The position numbers and the translations under genes were made by a program. Below the pieces are notes generated by a model, which searched no databases, had not been told where the DNA came from, and worked only from the letters and a program-made list of their open reading frames with translations. 12,281 nt of DNA from Promethearchaeota archaeon (GTDB taxonomy: Archaea > Asgardarchaeota > Lokiarchaeia > Sigynarchaeales > SOKP01), in contig JAGXNZ010000253.1 in NCBI GenBank assembly GCA_019894655.1, forward strand, positions 1 to 12,281, given 5' to 3'. This document shows positions 1,230 through 12,225 of this stretch, piece by piece (the first letter of the stretch is position 1; every line of letters starts with the position of its first letter).

Positions 1230-3812
1230 ATGAGAAATCTTGCGAAGAAAGCTATAATAAAATTATCTATTTTTATACCGCTCGCAGTTATCGTTATGAC
1301 TATCTTTTCACTGCCCTTAATGGGTATTCCTCCTTTAGGGAACCTCTTATTTCCTGGAAACGGAGTATGGAAAGTTCCGGGAGAGCTTCCAGCAGCAGAA
1401 AGGTTAAACATACCATCGTTAAGAGGGGAAGTTACAGTTATTCGTGATGATTGGGGTATACCTCATATTTTTGCCGAATACGAAGAAGATCTCTTTTTTG
1501 CACAGGGGTATTGTCATGCTCAAGATAGGTTGTTCCAAATGGATATGTGGCGTCGTCAAGTACAAGGAAGAATGTCGGAAATTTTAGGAGAGAGTATGTT
1601 AACCAGTGATAAAATCATGCTTGCGAGGGGTATGTGGGATTCAGCTATTAAAACTGATGAATTATTAAGGGAAATGGATAATAATGGAACTCTTGAGTTT
1701 TTCAGTTCATTTGAAAAGTATGTTGATGGAATAAATTATTACATTGAATCTCATAACGATTTCAAACCATTAGAATACCATTTAACGGATTTCCAACCCA
1801 CTAAATGGACGACTGTTGACACCTTATGTTTAGTACAGGAAATGGCAAGACAGATGTCTTGGAATAGTCACGATTTAGAAAGATATGTTACTTTACAATC
1901 CTTGAATCACACATATTATAACGAACTTTTTGGAGAACCTTTACCTTATCAAATTCCAATCGTTCCCGATTACGGAGATTTCCCAGAAAGCCCTATGAAA
2001 GCGGGAATTGATTTGAAAGCTAATGCGGCTTTAAAATCAGAAATTTCAAACTTTCTAGAGAAGATACAAGAAATTGATTCAGAGAAAACCTTAATGGAGA
2101 ACCAAAAAGAACAAATAATCGGGTCAAATAATTGGGTTGTTAACGGCACTTTGAGCACCACGGGGGCTCCAATCCTCTGTAACGATATGCATCTTAGTTG
2201 GTTGATGCCAGGAGTATGGTATGAACAGCATTTAAAAGCTGAAGATACGGGATTTCATGTTTATGGTTTTATAATACCAGGGATGCCTGGTGTTGCTGTA
2301 GGTCATAATGAAAGAGTAGGTTGGGGATTTACAAACACAGGATATGATGTTATAGATTGGTATTATTATAATACGGATGGACCAAATAATTACATTTATG
2401 ATGGAGTGTCAACAGCTTACACACAAAAAACCTATAACATAAAAGTTAAAGATCAAGAAACAATTAAGTTCATAGTTAATTATACTGTTCATGGGCCTGT
2501 AATCAGTGATTTAATTAATTATGGATTAACTTCCTTTCTGGGAGACATTGTTTTAGCGCCAAAATGGACTGCTAACGATTATTTTTTCAATATTCTTGCT
2601 GGTAATGGGTTTGATCGGGCAAATAATAGAGCAGATTTTGACGAGGCCTCAAAATACTGGACACTTCTTGCTCAAAATATTGTATACGCAGACATAGATG
2701 GAAATATTGCTATTAGACCAACAGGAAAAGTACCGATTAGAGACGATTCTAAAATCCCTCCAGGACATTTTGGAAACGGATCACTACCATATAACGGTTC
2801 AAACGGTGAAGGTGAATGGATTGGATATATCCCTTTTGAAGAATTGCCTAATTCTTTTAATCCATCGCAAAAATATTTAGCTTCCGCAAATCAAATTGTC
2901 GCAGGATCAGAATACAAAAAATATTTTTTACAAAACGAATATGCAGATGGATATAGAGCAAGAAGAATAAATGAACTTCTTATGAATGCTGCTGACGGAT
3001 CTGTAAGTATAGAGACTATGAAAAATATTCAAAACGATGTGAATTCAACTGCAGCGAGGGCGTTCGTTCCAGATTTAATTGAAGTTATACACGATTATTA
3101 CGGTCCTGCAATTCCTACGAAAACTAATAATGTTCTCACAGAATTAGAAAACTGGGGTTTTATAATGGATAAGGAAGAAAGCGCGCCAACTATATATCGT
3201 AAATGGAGAGATTTTTTCCAAGACTTTACGTTTAACGACGAATCCACATTATATGAGATTAATATTCCCTCTAGAATTGTTGTATTAGAGTATTTAATGA
3301 AAGAAAATGAATCGTCTCATTGGTTCAATAATATCTCCACGCCTGAAAATGAAACTAGAGATGATATCATGATTCAAGCGTTAAATGCTACTATAGATTG
3401 GTTAGAAGATTTTTACAATTCAGAAGATCTAACTACTTGGAGATGGGGCGATCTCCATCAACTTTACTTCACCTCTCTCACTCAATTAGACTTCTTAAGT
3501 AAAGGTCCTTATGAAGCTGATGGGGAGAGGTATACAATCAATCCTTCAGGCGTAAATATAAAAAATGGAGTAGGTTATGCGAGAGGTGGCGCTTCTGAAA
3601 GATTAATTATCGACTTTAGCGACTTAAATAATTCTTTAAGCGTAATTCCTTCAGGACAGCGAGGTCTTTCAAACTCAAAACACTATTCAGACCAACTAGA
3701 ACAACTTTTTTTAGAAGGTAAATATCATTATCAATATTTCTCAAACACATTATACAACTTTCCCACTAGTTCAATTGAATCTAAATTATATTTCTTTCCA
3801 ACTGGAGGTTAA
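1230..3812 (+). CDS. penicillin acylase family (peptidase S45) Ntn-hydrolase, membrane-anchored
   Basis: This 860-residue protein is an S45 precursor. An N-terminal hydrophobic segment at about 8-33 after basic residues marks export or membrane anchoring, so the enzyme should act outside the cell. The A-chain carries the family motif DDWGIPHIFA, then a stretch ending AQDRLFQMDMWRR. Self-cleavage is predicted between Gly298 and Ser299 (GSNNWV), making Ser299 the N-terminal nucleophile of a B-chain of about 562 residues, close to the usual length. Further B-chain signatures are GHNERVGWGF, the Asn in LASANQ (Asn554, matching the oxyanion-hole Asn of penicillin G acylase) and the C-terminal GQRGLSNSKHYSDQ. 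The family hydrolyses amides such as penicillins, acyl-homoserine lactones and other N-acyl compounds; the substrate here cannot be read from sequence. It lies four bases upstream of a small membrane protein gene, an evident operon. Confidence 0.9.
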   Translation: MRNLAKKAIIKLSIFIPLAVIVMTIFSLPLMGIPPLGNLLFPGNGVWKVPGELPAAERLNIPSLRGEVTVIRDDWGIPHIFAEYEEDLFFAQGYCHAQDRLFQMDMWRRQVQGRMSEILGESMLTSDKIMLARGMWDSAIKTDELLREMDNNGTLEFFSSFEKYVDGINYYIESHNDFKPLEYHLTDFQPTKWTTVDTLCLVQEMARQMSWNSHDLERYVTLQSLNHTYYNELFGEPLPYQIPIVPDYGDFPESPMKAGIDLKANAALKSEISNFLEKIQEIDSEKTLMENQKEQIIGSNNWVVNGTLSTTGAPILCNDMHLSWLMPGVWYEQHLKAEDTGFHVYGFIIPGMPGVAVGHNERVGWGFTNTGYDVIDWYYYNTDGPNNYIYDGVSTAYTQKTYNIKVKDQETIKFIVNYTVHGPVISDLINYGLTSFLGDIVLAPKWTANDYFFNILAGNGFDRANNRADFDEASKYWTLLAQNIVYADIDGNIAIRPTGKVPIRDDSKIPPGHFGNGSLPYNGSNGEGEWIGYIPFEELPNSFNPSQKYLASANQIVAGSEYKKYFLQNEYADGYRARRINELLMNAADGSVSIETMKNIQNDVNSTAARAFVPDLIEVIHDYYGPAIPTKTNNVLTELENWGFIMDKEESAPTIYRKWRDFFQDFTFNDESTLYEINIPSRIVVLEYLMKENESSHWFNNISTPENETRDDIMIQALNATIDWLEDFYNSEDLTTWRWGDLHQLYFTSLTQLDFLSKGPYEADGERYTINPSGVNIKNGVGYARGGASERLIIDFSDLNNSLSVIPSGQRGLSNSKHYSDQLEQLFLEGKYHYQYFSNTLYNFPTSSIESKLYFFPTGG
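3804..3808 (+). promoter_or_regulatory. Shine-Dalgarno site deciding the start of the four-helix protein
   Basis: GGAGG, followed by TT, lies eight bases before the ATG at 3817 and overlaps the end of the S45 coding sequence. It selects this ATG over an in-frame ATG at 3775 that lies inside the upstream gene. Confidence 0.7.
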
Positions 3813-4308: not shown

Positions 4309-4680
4309 CTAATCTAAAAGCGCCGCAATTCTGTTCGAGACGCTTTGGATATTGAGGAAAACCATTCCTAAACTAGAATTAGCGCTACATAAGGTACATA
4401 ATATAGCATTCTCACCCGCTTTAGAGAGAACAATAATTCCATTTAAACCTTCAATAAGGATTCTTTTTAACTCGCCTCTATCAAGTTCCTCAACCGCGCG
4501 CTCTGAAACGCTCTGTATAGCTGCTGACATTGCCGAAACTATACCGTCATTCACATCCCGGCTTAAAACGGAGCAAATTGGAAGTCCTTGAACGCTGACT
4601 ATAGCGGAACCCTCAATATCACTATTTACTGCGGATAATTTTCTTAGTAGGTCCGTGAGCTCGCTAATATTCTCAGACAA
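4309..4680 (-). CDS. roadblock/LC7 domain protein
   Basis: This is a 123-residue stand-alone roadblock/LC7 domain. The usual signatures appear in order: a first strand with the GLPICS motif (32-37), a long helix (VSAMSAAIQSVSERAVEEL), the G-x-L-x-x-I segment with GIIVLSKAGENAILCTL, then the final SSLGMVF strand and C-terminal helix. Such proteins dimerise and act as platforms for small GTPases (MglB for MglA; LAMTOR/Ragulator for Rag GTPases), and Asgard genomes encode many of them. The partner GTPase is not in this window. The start codon is TTG at 4680-4678, chosen because AGGAGG lies nine bases upstream; an ATG four bases further upstream is out of frame and stops after three codons. It diverges from the methionine aminopeptidase gene. 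Confidence 0.88.
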   Translation of the reverse strand: MSENISELTDLLRKLSAVNSDIEGSAIVSVQGLPICSVLSRDVNDGIVSAMSAAIQSVSERAVEELDRGELKRILIEGLNGIIVLSKAGENAILCTLCSANSSLGMVFLNIQSVSNRIAALLD

Positions 4681-5919: not shown

Positions 5920-7029
5920 ATGAAAAAACTAAAAATATGCCTTATTTCTTTAACTGTTTCTCCAGATAGTGTGGATGGCGAGGCAAAAGTCATCAGAGCA
6001 CTTTTTGAATATTTAAAAAAACAGGGACATAACGTTAAATTAGTCACTGGTAAATGGAACAAAGACTTAGACACTCCAGGCATTATTCAATTCGATTTAA
6101 TCAGAAAAAGGTTTCTATGGGCGCTTCATTTCTATTTTAAAGTCATTAGATACTTAAGAAGGAATAGATTCGATATTGTCCATGCAAATAGCGCAAAAGC
6201 TGCCTTACCAGTCATTTTATCTGGTCAGAAAAATTTCATAAGTACCATTCACGATTTTACTCCTTTTGAAACGCAACTCACAAAAATTCCATTAGAAAAG
6301 CTTTTAATTAAATTTGTTTCTAAAAGAGCATCTTCGATCCTAACAGTGTCTAATTTTGTTAAACATGAATTCCATCATTTTATTCCCACTATTGACAAGA
6401 ATAAAATTATAACGATTTACAATGGTATTGATGAAAAATACAAACCTTATCCGAATGAAGCTCAAAAGTTAAAAGAAAAACTAAATATTCATGGTCCAGT
6501 ATTATTATTTATTGGAAGAATAGCGCAGTATAAGGGTGTGAAAAGTATAATTGAAGCTTATAGGATAGTTAAAAGCGATATTCCCAATATTAATTTAGTT
6601 ATTGGTGGAAAACCTGACTTTTTAATGGAAAAGGAATACAATAACTGGGTTGCTGATTATAAAGACGTTCGTTTTTTAGGTTTTATCCCCGAAACTGATA
6701 TTCCATTCTATTTTTCTATGGGAGATATTTTTATAACATATTCATCTTCATCTGAAGGATTTGGATTAACCTCTTTGGAAGCTATTTCTTGTGGAACTCC
6801 TGTCATTTGTTCAGCAATTTCAGTATACAAAGAAATTTTAGAGGACCACGCACTTTTTGTTCCACCTAGAAATCCCCTTAAATTAGCAGAGACTATTAAT
6901 CTCCTACTGAGCGATGACGATCTAAGAAATCAATTAGTTATTGATGCTCAAAGATATATCCAAAAATACAGTTGGAACGCTGTAGGTAAAAGGTTAGAAA
7001 ACGAATACGAAAAATTTATGAGTCTCTAA
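5920..7029 (+). CDS. GT4-family glycosyltransferase
   Basis: This 369-residue cytosolic or membrane-associated GT-B enzyme should transfer a sugar from a nucleotide sugar to a glycan or lipid carrier. The N-terminal Rossmann half has ICLISLTVSPDSVDGEAKV and DIVHANSAKAALP (acceptor side). The linker IYNGID leads to the donor-binding half, with LFIGRIAQYKGV providing Arg200 and Lys205 for the diphosphate, and the E-x7-E motif Glu279...Glu287 in SEGFGLTSLEAISCGTPVI. All typical GT4 features are intact and the length is normal. Donor and acceptor cannot be read from sequence. The stop overlaps the tail of the opposing DUF354 gene by four bases. Other glycan genes on the opposite strand suggest a surface polysaccharide or protein-linked glycan pathway. 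Confidence 0.9.
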   Translation: MKKLKICLISLTVSPDSVDGEAKVIRALFEYLKKQGHNVKLVTGKWNKDLDTPGIIQFDLIRKRFLWALHFYFKVIRYLRRNRFDIVHANSAKAALPVILSGQKNFISTIHDFTPFETQLTKIPLEKLLIKFVSKRASSILTVSNFVKHEFHHFIPTIDKNKIITIYNGIDEKYKPYPNEAQKLKEKLNIHGPVLLFIGRIAQYKGVKSIIEAYRIVKSDIPNINLVIGGKPDFLMEKEYNNWVADYKDVRFLGFIPETDIPFYFSMGDIFITYSSSSEGFGLTSLEAISCGTPVICSAISVYKEILEDHALFVPPRNPLKLAETINLLLSDDDLRNQLVIDAQRYIQKYSWNAVGKRLENEYEKFMSL

Positions 7030-8135
7030 GAACGCCCCATGAGGTTTTTCTTAACAAATTTATAACAGATTTCATTTGGATTCTCAAAATTCAATATTTT
7101 TTCGCGAAAATGATTGGTAAACCTATCAGGTTTCGGTTTGGTTGAGAGAATTTCTAAAGATTTTTTTACAATTTCGTGACTCTCTTTTATATGTTGTAAA
7201 GGGAAGCCATTATTTATTAAAAAATGTTCCTGGGGTGCGGTCTCTCCTGGAAAAAATTCTATACTCGGTACATTTAATAAACTTGACTCACGTACTATTG
7301 TTCCACCGCCGCTGATTACTAAACTGCTGTAAAAACACAAATCAACCATATTTGGCATGTATCTTGTTATTTTTAAGTTGGAATTTCCTATGTAATTCTC
7401 CAATTTCTCGTTGAGAAATAACTCTTGCTTTTTCGTTCTTACAATTATCAAAAATTTATGATTTGGAAATTCTCTAAATATGGGAGGAAAGAACTCGCTA
7501 ATTAATGATTCTTCTGGTTTAAGAACATCAATAAAATAACTTGCAAATGAGGGTTCACTTCTTATAACTACGTATTCTCCCTTCTTTAGGTTATTGTCAT
7601 CAAGAACGGAAGGATTAGGTAGATATTCTGAAAGCCAAGCTATCTCGTCGATGCCATTATATCTTATTAATTTATTTGGATTTGCGTGGAGGTTTATATA
7701 CAGTTGTTCGGGAACACAAGTTGGAGTAATAATATTATCTAAATAGGGAAATAGTAATTTACATACTGGAACATTGCGAGGTTCGTCATTATAACCTATT
7801 GAAGAGATATTCAACCCATATGAGATTCTTGTACCTTCAACAGATGAAAATGTAATAAAATAATCTGGCTTAAAATTTACAACCTTAGGGTATAATTCCG
7901 CCAAACGGTTTATATATGACTTTAATTTTTTTTCTAAAGTGGCGCCTCCGTGTTTCCCTACTTTTTCATAAATTACTTCTAAATCGTCTAAAATTTGAAA
8001 GGTTGAATCGTAATCTCTTGCGGTAACAAGGAGGTCAGCTCCATCATTTCTAAATTTTTCTAAAAGAGATTTAAACATTATACCTGTTTTTGGTTCTTCT
8101 ACGTCAATCCAAATTTTCTTCCCTGATAAACTCAT
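7026..8135 (-). CDS. DUF354 family protein (GT-B glycosyltransferase-like)
   Basis: The 369-residue protein matches DUF354 throughout. Its N-terminus KIWIDVEEPKTGIMFKSLL is followed by VTARDYDSTFQILDDL, the YEKVGKHGG segment, KPDYFITF, NDEPRNVPVCKLLFPYLD with IITPTCVP, and the C-terminal donor-site-like loop Ser275-Gly-Gly-Gly278 in SGGGTIVRESSLLNVPS. The fold is predicted to be GT-B, related to the UDP-GlcNAc epimerase/MurG-type enzymes, and such genes usually lie in archaeal surface-glycan clusters. The biochemical reaction of the family is not well established. It is the last gene of the minus-strand series and lies 58 bases after the acyltransferase stop. The ATG start has no Shine-Dalgarno but a TATA-like element at the leaderless distance. 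Its TAG stop overlaps the TAA of the GT4 gene on the other strand. Confidence 0.85.
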   Translation of the reverse strand: MSLSGKKIWIDVEEPKTGIMFKSLLEKFRNDGADLLVTARDYDSTFQILDDLEVIYEKVGKHGGATLEKKLKSYINRLAELYPKVVNFKPDYFITFSSVEGTRISYGLNISSIGYNDEPRNVPVCKLLFPYLDNIITPTCVPEQLYINLHANPNKLIRYNGIDEIAWLSEYLPNPSVLDDNNLKKGEYVVIRSEPSFASYFIDVLKPEESLISEFFPPIFREFPNHKFLIIVRTKKQELFLNEKLENYIGNSNLKITRYMPNMVDLCFYSSLVISGGGTIVRESSLLNVPSIEFFPGETAPQEHFLINNGFPLQHIKESHEIVKKSLEILSTKPKPDRFTNHFREKILNFENPNEICYKFVKKNLMGRS

Positions 8136-8157
8136 AATTATACTAATTCTTTCAGTT

Positions 8158-8167
8158 ATTATTTAAA
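8158..8167 (-). promoter_or_regulatory. candidate TATA box for the DUF354 gene
   Basis: The minus strand reads TTTAAATAAT, centred about 27 bases before the ATG at 8135, the leaderless distance. This suggests that DUF354 may have its own promoter although it lies downstream of the acyltransferase gene. Confidence 0.3.
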
Positions 8168-8193
8168 AATTTTAAAAGGAGCATCTATACGAT

Positions 8194-8949
8194 TTAAATC
8201 CAATCTGCAGGTTTTTTTTTTAAAAATTTAGCAGGGTTTCCGACGACTATATCTCTTTCCTCAGTATTTTTTGTAACAACAGCACCTGCTCCAACAATTG
8301 TTCCTCTTTTTAAAGTTATTCCCGGAAAAATAATTGAGTTTGCACCTAGTGATACTTCGTTTTCAATTGTTGGACCAATTAAATCAAATTTCTTCCGCTC
8401 CATATATTTATCATTCGTTAATTTACAGAAAGGACCCATAAATACATTATCTCCAATTTTACAATGTAACGGAATATACACTCCTGTTTGAATACTAACG
8501 TCAATGCCTATTACTACATTACCATCAATAACCGAGTTAGTACCTATAACTGTATTATGTCCTATTGATGTTTTTTCCCTTATCATAACATTATGTCCTG
8601 TTTGACAATTGTTCCCAATTGAAACCTCAGAGTAAATTATAGTACCCGCTCTTATGGTACAATTTGTTCCAATAGAAATTAAGGGACTCTCATAATCCGT
8701 TATATTTCTCTGACTCTTTACATTTGTTAATAATTCTGCTCGTTGAGGGTGCCCAATAATACAATTTTCCCCTATATAAGTTCCCGATTGAATTAAAGCA
8801 TTTCCGTAAATTTTGACACCCGTAGAGATATAAACTCCGCTCTCTATTTTAACTCCTTTTCCTATTATTACAAATGTATCAATATATGCTTTTTTATCCA
8901 CAATAGCATTCTTATGAATAAAAGAATTATTTATATTTTCAAGTTTCAC
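8194..8949 (-). CDS. left-handed beta-helix sugar acyltransferase (WbpD/WlbB-like)
   Basis: The 251-residue protein is built of hexapeptide repeats ([LIV]-G-x4: VIIGKGVKI, TYIGENCIIG, VSIGNNCQTG, TSIGHNTVIG and others) forming a left-handed beta-helix. Members are trimeric and use acetyl-CoA or acyl donors. The core GHNVMIREKTSIGHN and the loop TNDKY (178-182) before SLGANSIIFPGITL and VGAGAVVTKN...VVGNPAKFL match bacterial N-acetyltransferases of amino sugars (UDP-2-acetamido-3-amino-glucuronate type). I infer acetylation of a nucleotide amino sugar for a surface or protein-linked glycan; serine or other sugar acetyltransferases are alternatives. The start is GTG at 8949; no in-frame ATG exists upstream and the first repeats begin at residue 11, so a later start is unlikely. 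An A10 run lies in the coding strand near the 3' end (codons for LKKK). Confidence 0.82.
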   Translation of the reverse strand: MKLENINNSFIHKNAIVDKKAYIDTFVIIGKGVKIESGVYISTGVKIYGNALIQSGTYIGENCIIGHPQRAELLTNVKSQRNITDYESPLISIGTNCTIRAGTIIYSEVSIGNNCQTGHNVMIREKTSIGHNTVIGTNSVIDGNVVIGIDVSIQTGVYIPLHCKIGDNVFMGPFCKLTNDKYMERKKFDLIGPTIENEVSLGANSIIFPGITLKRGTIVGAGAVVTKNTEERDIVVGNPAKFLKKKPADWI

Positions 8950-9011
8950 TTCTATGGATTCACTTTCTTTTGATTTTTAGTTAAAATATATTGTAAAAAT
9001 TATTAATTTAT

Positions 9012-9305
9012 TCATTTTACGCAACTACAAGGAGAGGAATTACACTTTATACACTTATTAGGGTATTTACTAACTAAAGATTTTTCTATATCGATATTTA
9101 AGATATTTGCAACAGAAAATGTCCAGGCTATAATGTCTGCTAACTCTTCAGAAATCTTTTCTTTATCTAATTCTTGGGCGTTTAATAAAGTGGCAAGCTC
9201 ACCAATTTCTTCAATAAGCCATATGAAAGTGCTTTTAATCCCTCGATTTAGGTCCTTTTTAAGGTAGAGGTTCTTGAGTAACGCTTGAAATTCCGACATA
9301 CGCAT
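9012..9305 (-). CDS. MazG-like nucleotide pyrophosphohydrolase with Cys-rich tail
   Basis: The product of 97 residues is a small all-alpha NTP pyrophosphohydrolase. The metal-binding motif of the family is visible as Glu32-Glu33-x2-Glu36 (WLIEEIGEL) and Glu54-x2-Asp57 (EELADIIAW). These enzymes hydrolyse NTPs or dNTPs to monophosphates and are usually thought of as pool-cleaning enzymes. The tail adds four cysteines (Cys85, Cys88, Cys93, Cys95: CIKC...CSC), a likely zinc site. The start at ATG 9305 gives MRMSEFQ, the usual N-terminus of archaeal relatives; the TTG at 9311 is possible but less likely, and ATG 9299 would also work. It follows the Sec61-beta gene after a gap of 42 bases and precedes the sugar acyltransferase gene on the same strand. 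Confidence 0.82.
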   Translation of the reverse strand: MRMSEFQALLKNLYLKKDLNRGIKSTFIWLIEEIGELATLLNAQELDKEKISEELADIIAWTFSVANILNIDIEKSLVSKYPNKCIKCNSSPCSCVK

Positions 9306-9347
9306 ATTCAAAAGTAATCAAATTCATAAAAAATGCCTTAAATAAAG

Positions 9348-9715: not shown

Positions 9716-11578
9716 ATGAGAAGAAAAAGTTTTTTCATTATATTTATTGGATTTTTATCTGTTATGATTTTATTTTCAGCTATTCAATATGATTTTTCAT
9801 ACAATTTTCAAAATCATCTCTCAGTTGAAGACCCTCAACTATCAAGCACTTTAGAAGGAGCAGATAACCTTTTAGTTGTAGGTTCAATAAGAACCACTGA
9901 TTTAAATACCTACGGTTTAGTAAATATAGAGGATAGGCTGACAATCTTAAACTATAATAACAATCCGATTAATTCATTTTTATTTGGATTAAAAGTTGAA
10001 GATTCAAATAAATTAATTTATTTTAACGCTATTGGTGAAACACAGAACACACTATTAATCGAAAGATCCCACGAAATAATGGATATTTACGAAATGATTA
10101 CTGTGTATTTTGACACGCCGTTATTACCATCACAAGAAATTACTTTGACTGTTCAACATTCATATATAAATTTAATATCTTATGTGACAACATTTATTGA
10201 TGATGAATTCACTCAGCTCTTAATATTTGAAGGGCCATTGTTTCCTCTTTTACCTTATAAGAGCGAAGGAAACATTAAATCAAATTATATATTACCGCAA
10301 GGATCTACTTTAGAATATAATAAAAGAATTGGTGGAATGGGAAATCTGGTTGGAGATAACAATTTATTGTACGATTTAGATTTCTACGAAGAAATTGATT
10401 ATCTAGAGCCTTTTTTATTAAACTTAGGTGAGGATAACGAAACAGGTATTGCTGTAAAAAATATGTTTACATCGAAATTAGAAATAGAAAAAATAGACAA
10501 GGATATTTACATATCTCCCTGGGGTATTATTAAAAATGTTGAAGAAATTACGATTGAAAATGTTGGAACTGAAGAAATCCTTTTTATATATTTGAAAATT
10601 CCAAGCAACGCAATGAATGTAAAGGTTTACGACGATCTGGGAGAGGTCTTAGGAGTAGCCCTCATAGAATTAATCGATGATGTTTCGACAAAAACTGTTT
10701 CTATACCATTATACCAGAATAGAGTTTCGCTGTCAGCAGCATCAAAATTTACGTTTTTTCTCGAATATTATCTACCTCCTGAAGGATATATATCCTTTAA
10801 TTGGCTCCAACAATCCATTTCAATAAACTTACTTACGACAAAATATGAATATTTAATATACGAACAAACTACCAATGTAATTATCGAAGGTTGTGGTATA
10901 GTTGACTATATGTCTTCATTACCAGAAGCTTTGAGTAGCTCGGGAAATTCTAAAGTTTTAGTATACAGCATAGAAAATGTTAGTCCACTAGTAGAGAAAA
11001 ATATACTACTAACTTTTACTATTGATTTATTTGAAATACTTATTAGACCTGTTGTGTTCGTTATGATCCTTGCCTTATTGTCGTCGATTTTCGTTCTTGC
11101 AATTAAGACCCTTAAAAGAGAGGAACAAGTATCGATCTTCAAAAAAGAATTCATCCCTACTAGTGAAATTAGAGAATTTTGTTCTTTGTTCGAAGTAATC
11201 AATGCATTAGTGCTGGAAATTAGAAAAGCAGAAAGTGAGACAAAACGGAAGAAGTTAGCAAAAAAGACTTATAAGAATTTATTAAGCAAAAACACGGCAA
11301 GAATAGACCAGATTAAAGAAGAAATCCGCCCTTTTAAGAAAATCTTGTTGGAGACGAGCGATACATTTAGTAATATTGTAAAAAGACTTGATGTGTTAGA
11401 TGCCGAAAGAATTAGCATTTCAGATAGCTTAAATCTCTTGGAGGCGCGATATAAAAGGGGAAAATTACCTTCTAAAGCAGCATACCAAAAATTATCAGAT
11501 GATTTCTTCAATAGACAAAAAAAATTAGATAGAACGATCGATAAGTATATTCAACAACTAAGAAGTTATTTATTGTAA
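9716..11578 (+). CDS. ribophorin I-like protein (putative oligosaccharyltransferase subunit)
   Basis: The architecture of this 620-residue protein equals that of eukaryotic ribophorin I: a signal peptide (1 to about 25), a beta-rich extracytoplasmic region of about 420 residues, one transmembrane helix (445-463) and a cytosolic helical tail (464-620). From memory of human RPN1, local similarities fall in the same order: IFEGPLF...PY (Phe171-Gly173; RPN1 VFEG...SPYP), SPWGIIKNVEEITIENVG (267-284; RPN1 SHWGNIAVEENVDLKHTG), VYDDLGEV (304-311; RPN1 YRDEIGNV), and near the end LEARYKRGKLPSKAAYQKL (575-593; RPN1 [20 protein letters not shown]). Ribophorin I is a non-catalytic subunit of the complex that N-glycosylates proteins emerging from the Sec channel, and homologues are known from Asgard archaea. 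Sec61-beta is divergent next door, and a Trm112-like gene follows after 23 bases. The catalytic STT3/AglB subunit is not in the window. Confidence 0.75.
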   Translation: MRRKSFFIIFIGFLSVMILFSAIQYDFSYNFQNHLSVEDPQLSSTLEGADNLLVVGSIRTTDLNTYGLVNIEDRLTILNYNNNPINSFLFGLKVEDSNKLIYFNAIGETQNTLLIERSHEIMDIYEMITVYFDTPLLPSQEITLTVQHSYINLISYVTTFIDDEFTQLLIFEGPLFPLLPYKSEGNIKSNYILPQGSTLEYNKRIGGMGNLVGDNNLLYDLDFYEEIDYLEPFLLNLGEDNETGIAVKNMFTSKLEIEKIDKDIYISPWGIIKNVEEITIENVGTEEILFIYLKIPSNAMNVKVYDDLGEVLGVALIELIDDVSTKTVSIPLYQNRVSLSAASKFTFFLEYYLPPEGYISFNWLQQSISINLLTTKYEYLIYEQTTNVIIEGCGIVDYMSSLPEALSSSGNSKVLVYSIENVSPLVEKNILLTFTIDLFEILIRPVVFVMILALLSSIFVLAIKTLKREEQVSIFKKEFIPTSEIREFCSLFEVINALVLEIRKAESETKRKKLAKKTYKNLLSKNTARIDQIKEEIRPFKKILLETSDTFSNIVKRLDVLDAERISISDSLNLLEARYKRGKLPSKAAYQKLSDDFFNRQKKLDRTIDKYIQQLRSYLL

Positions 11579-11601: not shown

Positions 11602-12225
11602 ATGAGACCGTGGTTGTGCGATATTTTAGCTTGTCCGATTGATAAATTTTTTCCGCTTGAGTTGATAATCTTTTCTTTTGAAACAGACGAAAAAGTTTTT
11701 AAAGAAATATTAAAAGCGTATGACAACAGAGACATAATTAGTATTAAAAAGGAAAATGTTATTGAAATTGAGCAAAGAAATGAAGAATTACTTCTCAAAG
11801 ACGAAATCGTGATTGAAAAAAGTAAAATTGGTATTTATTTAAAAGCAATAATTTCCAGTGTTAAAGAAGTAGATAATATGAGCGACAAATCTTCATATGA
11901 GCTAAGTAAGCGATGTATTCACATTATACAAAATGATATAAAACAAAAAATAAAAGCCTTCTCAAACAATTTAATGAATGAACATATTGATACAATTTTG
12001 CCAGAATTATATTTTTTAAACAAATTCAAAACTGATATTGAAATTGAAACGGGTTTGTTGTTCTGTTCTAAGTGTAAGAGATGGTTCCCAATCATCGAAA
12101 CTATTCCACAGATGTTACCGGATGAATATAGAGATGAAGAAGCAGACGTTCTATTTCTGAAAACCAATAAAGATTTATTAGAGAACGCATTTTTTAAACA
12201 AAATTTAAAACCATATAATCTATAA
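11602..12225 (+). CDS. Trm112-like methyltransferase activator with large insert
   Basis: Both halves of the Trm112 zinc-knuckle domain are clear. The N-terminal half is MRPWLCDILACPIDKFFPLEL. The C-terminal half is GLLFCSKCKRWFPI followed by IPQMLPDEYR (151-177), with Cys155-x2-Cys158. In the first half the position of the second cysteine in bacterial relatives is Asp14 (CPIDK), so metal binding there may be lost or may use Cys6 and Cys11. Between the halves lies an insert of about 125 charged, helical residues (roughly 22-148), making the protein 207 residues long against about 60 for compact archaeal forms and 135 for the yeast protein. Trm112 stabilises and activates methyltransferases acting on tRNA, rRNA and release factor aRF1. 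It follows the ribophorin I-like gene after 23 bases and lies just ahead of a tRNA gene. Confidence 0.85.
   Translation: MRPWLCDILACPIDKFFPLELIIFSFETDEKVFKEILKAYDNRDIISIKKENVIEIEQRNEELLLKDEIVIEKSKIGIYLKAIISSVKEVDNMSDKSSYELSKRCIHIIQNDIKQKIKAFSNNLMNEHIDTILPELYFLNKFKTDIEIETGLLFCSKCKRWFPIIETIPQMLPDEYRDEEADVLFLKTNKDLLENAFFKQNLKPYNL
12213..12219 (+). promoter_or_regulatory. candidate TATA box of the tRNA-Gln gene
   Basis: ATATAAT is centred about 24 bases before the first tRNA base at 12240, as expected for an archaeal tRNA promoter. It overlaps the last codons of the Trm112-like gene, so the tRNA probably has its own promoter inside that coding sequence. Confidence 0.35.

Follow-up and report, generated by a model that had tools for sequence, protein, structure and literature searches.

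In a 12,281-nucleotide stretch of DNA from a Promethearchaeota archaeon (contig JAGXNZ010000253.1; hereafter the window), a gene at positions 9716..11578 encodes a 620-residue homologue of ribophorin I (RPN1), which is called Ost1 in yeast. We conclude, with a probability of roughly 0.87, that this protein serves a Lokiarchaeial oligosaccharyltransferase (OST) as its Ost1/ribophorin I subunit and that its basic four-helix tail docks on the ribosome. The protein belongs to the ribophorin I family, has the domain order and predicted fold of RPN1, and carries a conserved, positively charged tail. The idea of a ribosome dock is itself not new, having been published and tested with the protein of Promethearchaeum syntrophicum MK-D1 (PMC11417166).

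Domain layout and predicted fold

The gene and the parts of its product are as follows (window positions).

9716..11578, + strand: ribophorin I/Ost1 homologue; 620 codons, ATG start, intact open reading frame; Pfam family PF04597 (Ribophorin_I) at E=1.2e-13
9728..9784, + strand: signal-peptide-like hydrophobic segment, residues 5-23; hydropathy 2.59; helix 3-21 in the structure model
9842..11023, + strand: beta domains of the outer, lumen-equivalent region, from about residue 43 to about 436
11048..11104, + strand: transmembrane helix, residues 445-463; the highest hydropathy of any segment (2.81); the model shows a helix at 438-477
11105..11575, + strand: cytosolic tail, residues 464-620; helices 482-510, 516-547, 549-580 and 587-619

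The original prediction, made from the sequence, described a full-length ribophorin I-like protein extending from a signal peptide to a C-terminal tail of about 157 residues. This description is borne out by the two hydropathy segments, of which only that at 445-463 is a strong membrane segment and leaves a tail of 157 residues, and by the PF04597 profile, whose score of 51.4 bits is well over the cut-off (25). The match covers residues 58-285 and spans positions 7-229 of the 437-position profile, i.e. its N-terminal half only. No match was obtained in an NCBIfam scan of the protein.

The lumenal motifs FEG...PY, WG and YDDLGEV, to which the original prediction pointed, are present (FEG at residue 171, PY at 180, WG at 269 and YDDLGEV at 305). 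Moreover, a profile of 20 Asgard sequences matches residues 31-471 of the human RPN1 chain with E=1.9e-39, and in this alignment the corresponding human stretches occur in the same order.

With the structure model as query, ranks 1-8 in Foldseek are all RPN1/Ost1 chains, and the same is true of ranks 1-8 in the VIA structural ranking. The model has an RPN1-type outer fold, followed by the single membrane helix and by a C-terminal four-helix bundle with the topology of the mammalian and MK-D1 tails; both the outer fold and the tail resemble RPN1. With the PF04597 match significant as well, neither of the two outcomes that the original prediction named as refuting it was obtained. The net charge is +12 for the tail (residues 465-620) and -36 for the outer region (residues 31-440), and it is positive in all 18 tails of the tail alignment.

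The tail in Asgard genomes and beyond

Searches with the protein gave 277 homologues at E<=0.001. Among the best 120 of these, most are 612-625 residues long, i.e. mostly full length, and those carrying a label are Promethearchaeota or Lokiarchaeota archaea, except for one Nanopelagicaceae bacterium and one 'subsurface metagenome'. Because there are 277 homologues, mostly full length among the 120 listed, the reading frame and its motifs are not a chance observation. On GTDB contigs, seven loci match with 57-92% identity, all with Lokiarchaeota or Lokiarchaeia in their titles; two of them, L005 and L007, represent one isolate. The window itself is accordingly taken to come from a Lokiarchaeon. 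A search with the protein of a further locus, L017, gave 10 matches, one labelled Promethearchaeota.

In an alignment of the query with 34 homologues picked from the 120 to span the range of identity, 65 of 140 columns are invariant in residues 481-620 compared with 47 of 410 in residues 31-440. Since the sequences were picked in this way, the contrast between tail and outer region, rather than the level of conservation, is the result. Stronger constraint on the tail than on the outer region is what contact with the slowly evolving ribosome would lead one to expect; however, outer domains often evolve fast and the contrast is therefore not proof of such an interface.

Across the phylum, PF04597 matches 127 of 227 genomes (122 above its cut-off), and a tail profile matches 209 of 227 (204 at 2e-14 or better), a tail match alone being no proof of RPN1 in a given genome. 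Among the matches listed, most of the open frames that hold the tail have 566-760 codons and some have 136-538. A hidden Markov model of Lokiarchaeial tails matched 29 of 30 loci from the phylum (L016-L045) at E<=0.026 and 24 of 30 at E<=0.001. The tail profile had no match in 18 of the 227 genomes, among them G179 (loci L016 and L077), which has the best PF04597 score of the phylum; its RPN1 frame runs off the contig and, thus, the missing tail match is no evidence of loss. Two genomes, G186 and G194, carry the tail in frames well above the usual length (981 and 988 codons), and G204 and G218 have weak, below-cut-off PF04597 matches in frames of 993 and 1233 codons. Perhaps these four long frames represent an enlarged variant.

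In a tail search of 392 relatives of genome G003, 223 had a match, including the 209 of the phylum. The 165 other genomes were taken as lying outside the phylum by subtraction; the 14 matches among them (E from 1.3e-7 to 8.0e-4) are probably coiled-coil background. A full-length profile was run on 34 genomes, i.e. these 14, G179 and 19 further outside genomes. It matched eight: G179, five in the tail part only (G239, G260, G323, G330 and G342; E 9.9e-5 or worse), and G228 and G270 in the outer part. The last two matches are to the following proteins.

L079 1258-2205, - strand: 315-residue protein with an RPN1-like outer part and a C-terminal DUF7343/winged-helix domain
L078 1417-2364, + strand: 315-residue protein with an RPN1-like outer part, by eye nearly the same as that in L079

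In each, the first part aligns with the latter half of the outer profile of RPN1 (E 2.6e-6 in L079 and 2.5e-6 in L078). We rejected both as Ost1, as the DUF7343/winged-helix end in L079 is not that of Ost1 as known; possibly, they carry an RPN1-like outer domain on a membrane-bound regulator. Ost1 is reported from TACK archaea by Carilo et al. (PMC11417166).

Proposed function, alternatives and neighbouring genes

In the proposed mechanism, the N-terminal part would be exported and fold outside the membrane into RPN1-type beta domains that may support STT3, the catalytic subunit, while one helix would span the membrane. The basic four-helix bundle would dock on the ribosome inside the cell beside the Sec61/SecY channel, and this docking could keep the glycosylating enzyme at the exit point of nascent chains. 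Association with STT3 and co-translational glycosylation by an STT3 held at the translocon are suggested by analogy with the eukaryotic complex, and docking would probably be on the organism's own ribosomes. STT3 was found in five of six related genomes, which is compatible with a role in OST, yet STT3 is common in archaea.

The original prediction also compared the tail motif LEARYKRGKLPSKAAYQKL with the human tail; the motif is present at residue 575, but its likeness to the human tail is weakly supported at the sequence level. A profile of 18 tails searched against 177,635 PDB sequences retrieved the MK-D1 tail (8WHN) first; the remaining matches, none with E better than 0.0059, are mostly to coiled-coil and helical proteins, and the 42 listed at E<=10 do not include human RPN1. 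When the tail was aligned directly with the human tail by hhalign, the GKL motifs coincided, but the probability was 10% (P=0.003). In a shuffle test, the 12.7 bits between the tail and its human counterpart were reached by one of 4999 scored shuffles (5000 made), a result that is suggestive only, because shuffling of letters leaves helical periodicity uncontrolled.

These weak links, together with the strong conservation of the tail within Lokiarchaeia, which fits any important partner, also agree with an Ost1 homologue in which the tail does something specific to Asgard archaea, such as holding together a larger translocon or a link to the cytoskeleton, with ribosome contact being incidental. 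We consider this unlikely; the bundle has the RPN1 topology, and the MK-D1 tail is reported to recover human ribosomes (PMC11417166). That the gene encodes a non-OST cell-surface protein with the same beta fold as the N-terminal domain of M1 aminopeptidase is hardly credible, RPN1/Ost1 chains filling the top eight ranks in both structural rankings.

Other families were considered for the tail. REX1BD (PF14966), a soluble eukaryotic protein of poorly known function that has been reported with the proteasome lid, matched two of 18 tails at E<=1 (best E 0.015; 16.2 bits against a cut-off of 24) and was rejected; in the 227 genomes of the phylum it had one match at E<=0.001 and none above the cut-off. 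Also rejected were DUF7615, HalX, Relaxase_C and other Pfam families matching the tail only, as well as PspA_IM30 for the tail of L042 (1.1e-5); tail matches in Pfam were below the cut-offs where these are shown. It is conceivable, although rather doubtful, that the bundle is a translocon module of nearly all Asgard archaea, gained in the Asgard stem or earlier and constrained more than the glycosylation-side domain, and that the soluble eukaryotic REX1BD is a freed copy, which resembles the archaeal tail in shape more closely than the tail of human RPN1 does.

Other genes in the window are as follows.

1230-3812, + strand: penicillin-amidase family protein (E=1.3e-190)
4309-4680, - strand: Roadblock/LC7 protein (E=4e-15)
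5920-9311, upstream of RPN1: glycosyltransferase family 4, DUF354, hexapeptide-repeat transferase and MazG-like genes
11602-12225, + strand: Trm112-like protein of 207 residues, 23 bases after RPN1

The upstream run, which possibly consists of glycan-building genes, keeps its order beside RPN1 in L001, L003 and L006. In L002, L004 and L005, the glycosyltransferase and DUF354 genes have relatives (59% and 43%, respectively) and MazG is present, and no hexapeptide-repeat match was seen in these three loci. In the distant locus L077, a protein that looks hexapeptide-like by eye precedes RPN1. The two halves of the Trm112 profile match lie far apart (residues 5-165 for a 40-position profile), and the NCBIfam archaeal Trm112 model scores 46.6 bits, under its cut-off of 77. 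A Trm112-like gene lies 3' of RPN1 in six of the seven Lokiarchaeial loci, and the remaining one, L005, breaks off within RPN1; in the 30 phylum loci with about 1 kb of flank, four have a match (L032, L036, L040 and L045).

Comparison with known systems

The cytosolic bundle of mammalian ribophorin I contacts the ribosome. Human RPN1 (6s7o, 6s7t, 8b6l, 8pn9; chain of 607 residues) has the same succession of outer domains, single membrane helix and C-terminal four-helix bundle as the Lokiarchaeial protein; it differs in sequence (16-19% identity) and in a less basic tail (net charge +3). Yeast Ost1 (6c26, 6ezn, 7oci, 8agb) is without the cytosolic bundle. Its PDB chain has 476 residues and is matched by the Asgard profile up to residue 462, in agreement with the original prediction that it ends soon after the membrane helix, and loss of the bundle in yeast is the simplest reading of the human and yeast chains compared.

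In 2016 no archaeal homologues of non-catalytic OST subunits had been found (PMC4973528), and Ost1 was already reported in Asgard archaea before 2023 (PMC10307638, citing an earlier paper). Carilo et al. 2024 (PMC11417166), in a legend of whose paper the name 'ribosome interacting domain' appears, solved the structure of the MK-D1 Ost1 tail: a bundle of four helices that has the human topology but slightly different helix angles. The MK-D1 tail recovers human ribosomes, as the human tail does, and the MK-D1 extracellular domain fails to do so; the ribosomes in this pull-down were human, not archaeal. The Lokiarchaeial protein diverges from MK-D1 OST1 in sequence, the comparison with 8WHN covering the tail alone. 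In titles and abstract openings, we found no further structural work on the archaeal Ost1 tail.

The spread of the bundle through the Asgard phylum and the MK-D1 experiment support the claim that the domain facing the ribosome is older than eukaryotes. What is new here is how widely the tail occurs (209 of 227 genomes) and how well it is conserved, both useful increments to the known picture. In total, these observations support the view that the eukaryotic endoplasmic reticulum translocon, with the ribosome dock of its glycosylation enzyme, goes back to an Asgard ancestor and has been trimmed in yeast. The Lokiarchaeial protein adds a further sequence to this picture, which had already been put to the test with the protein of MK-D1.
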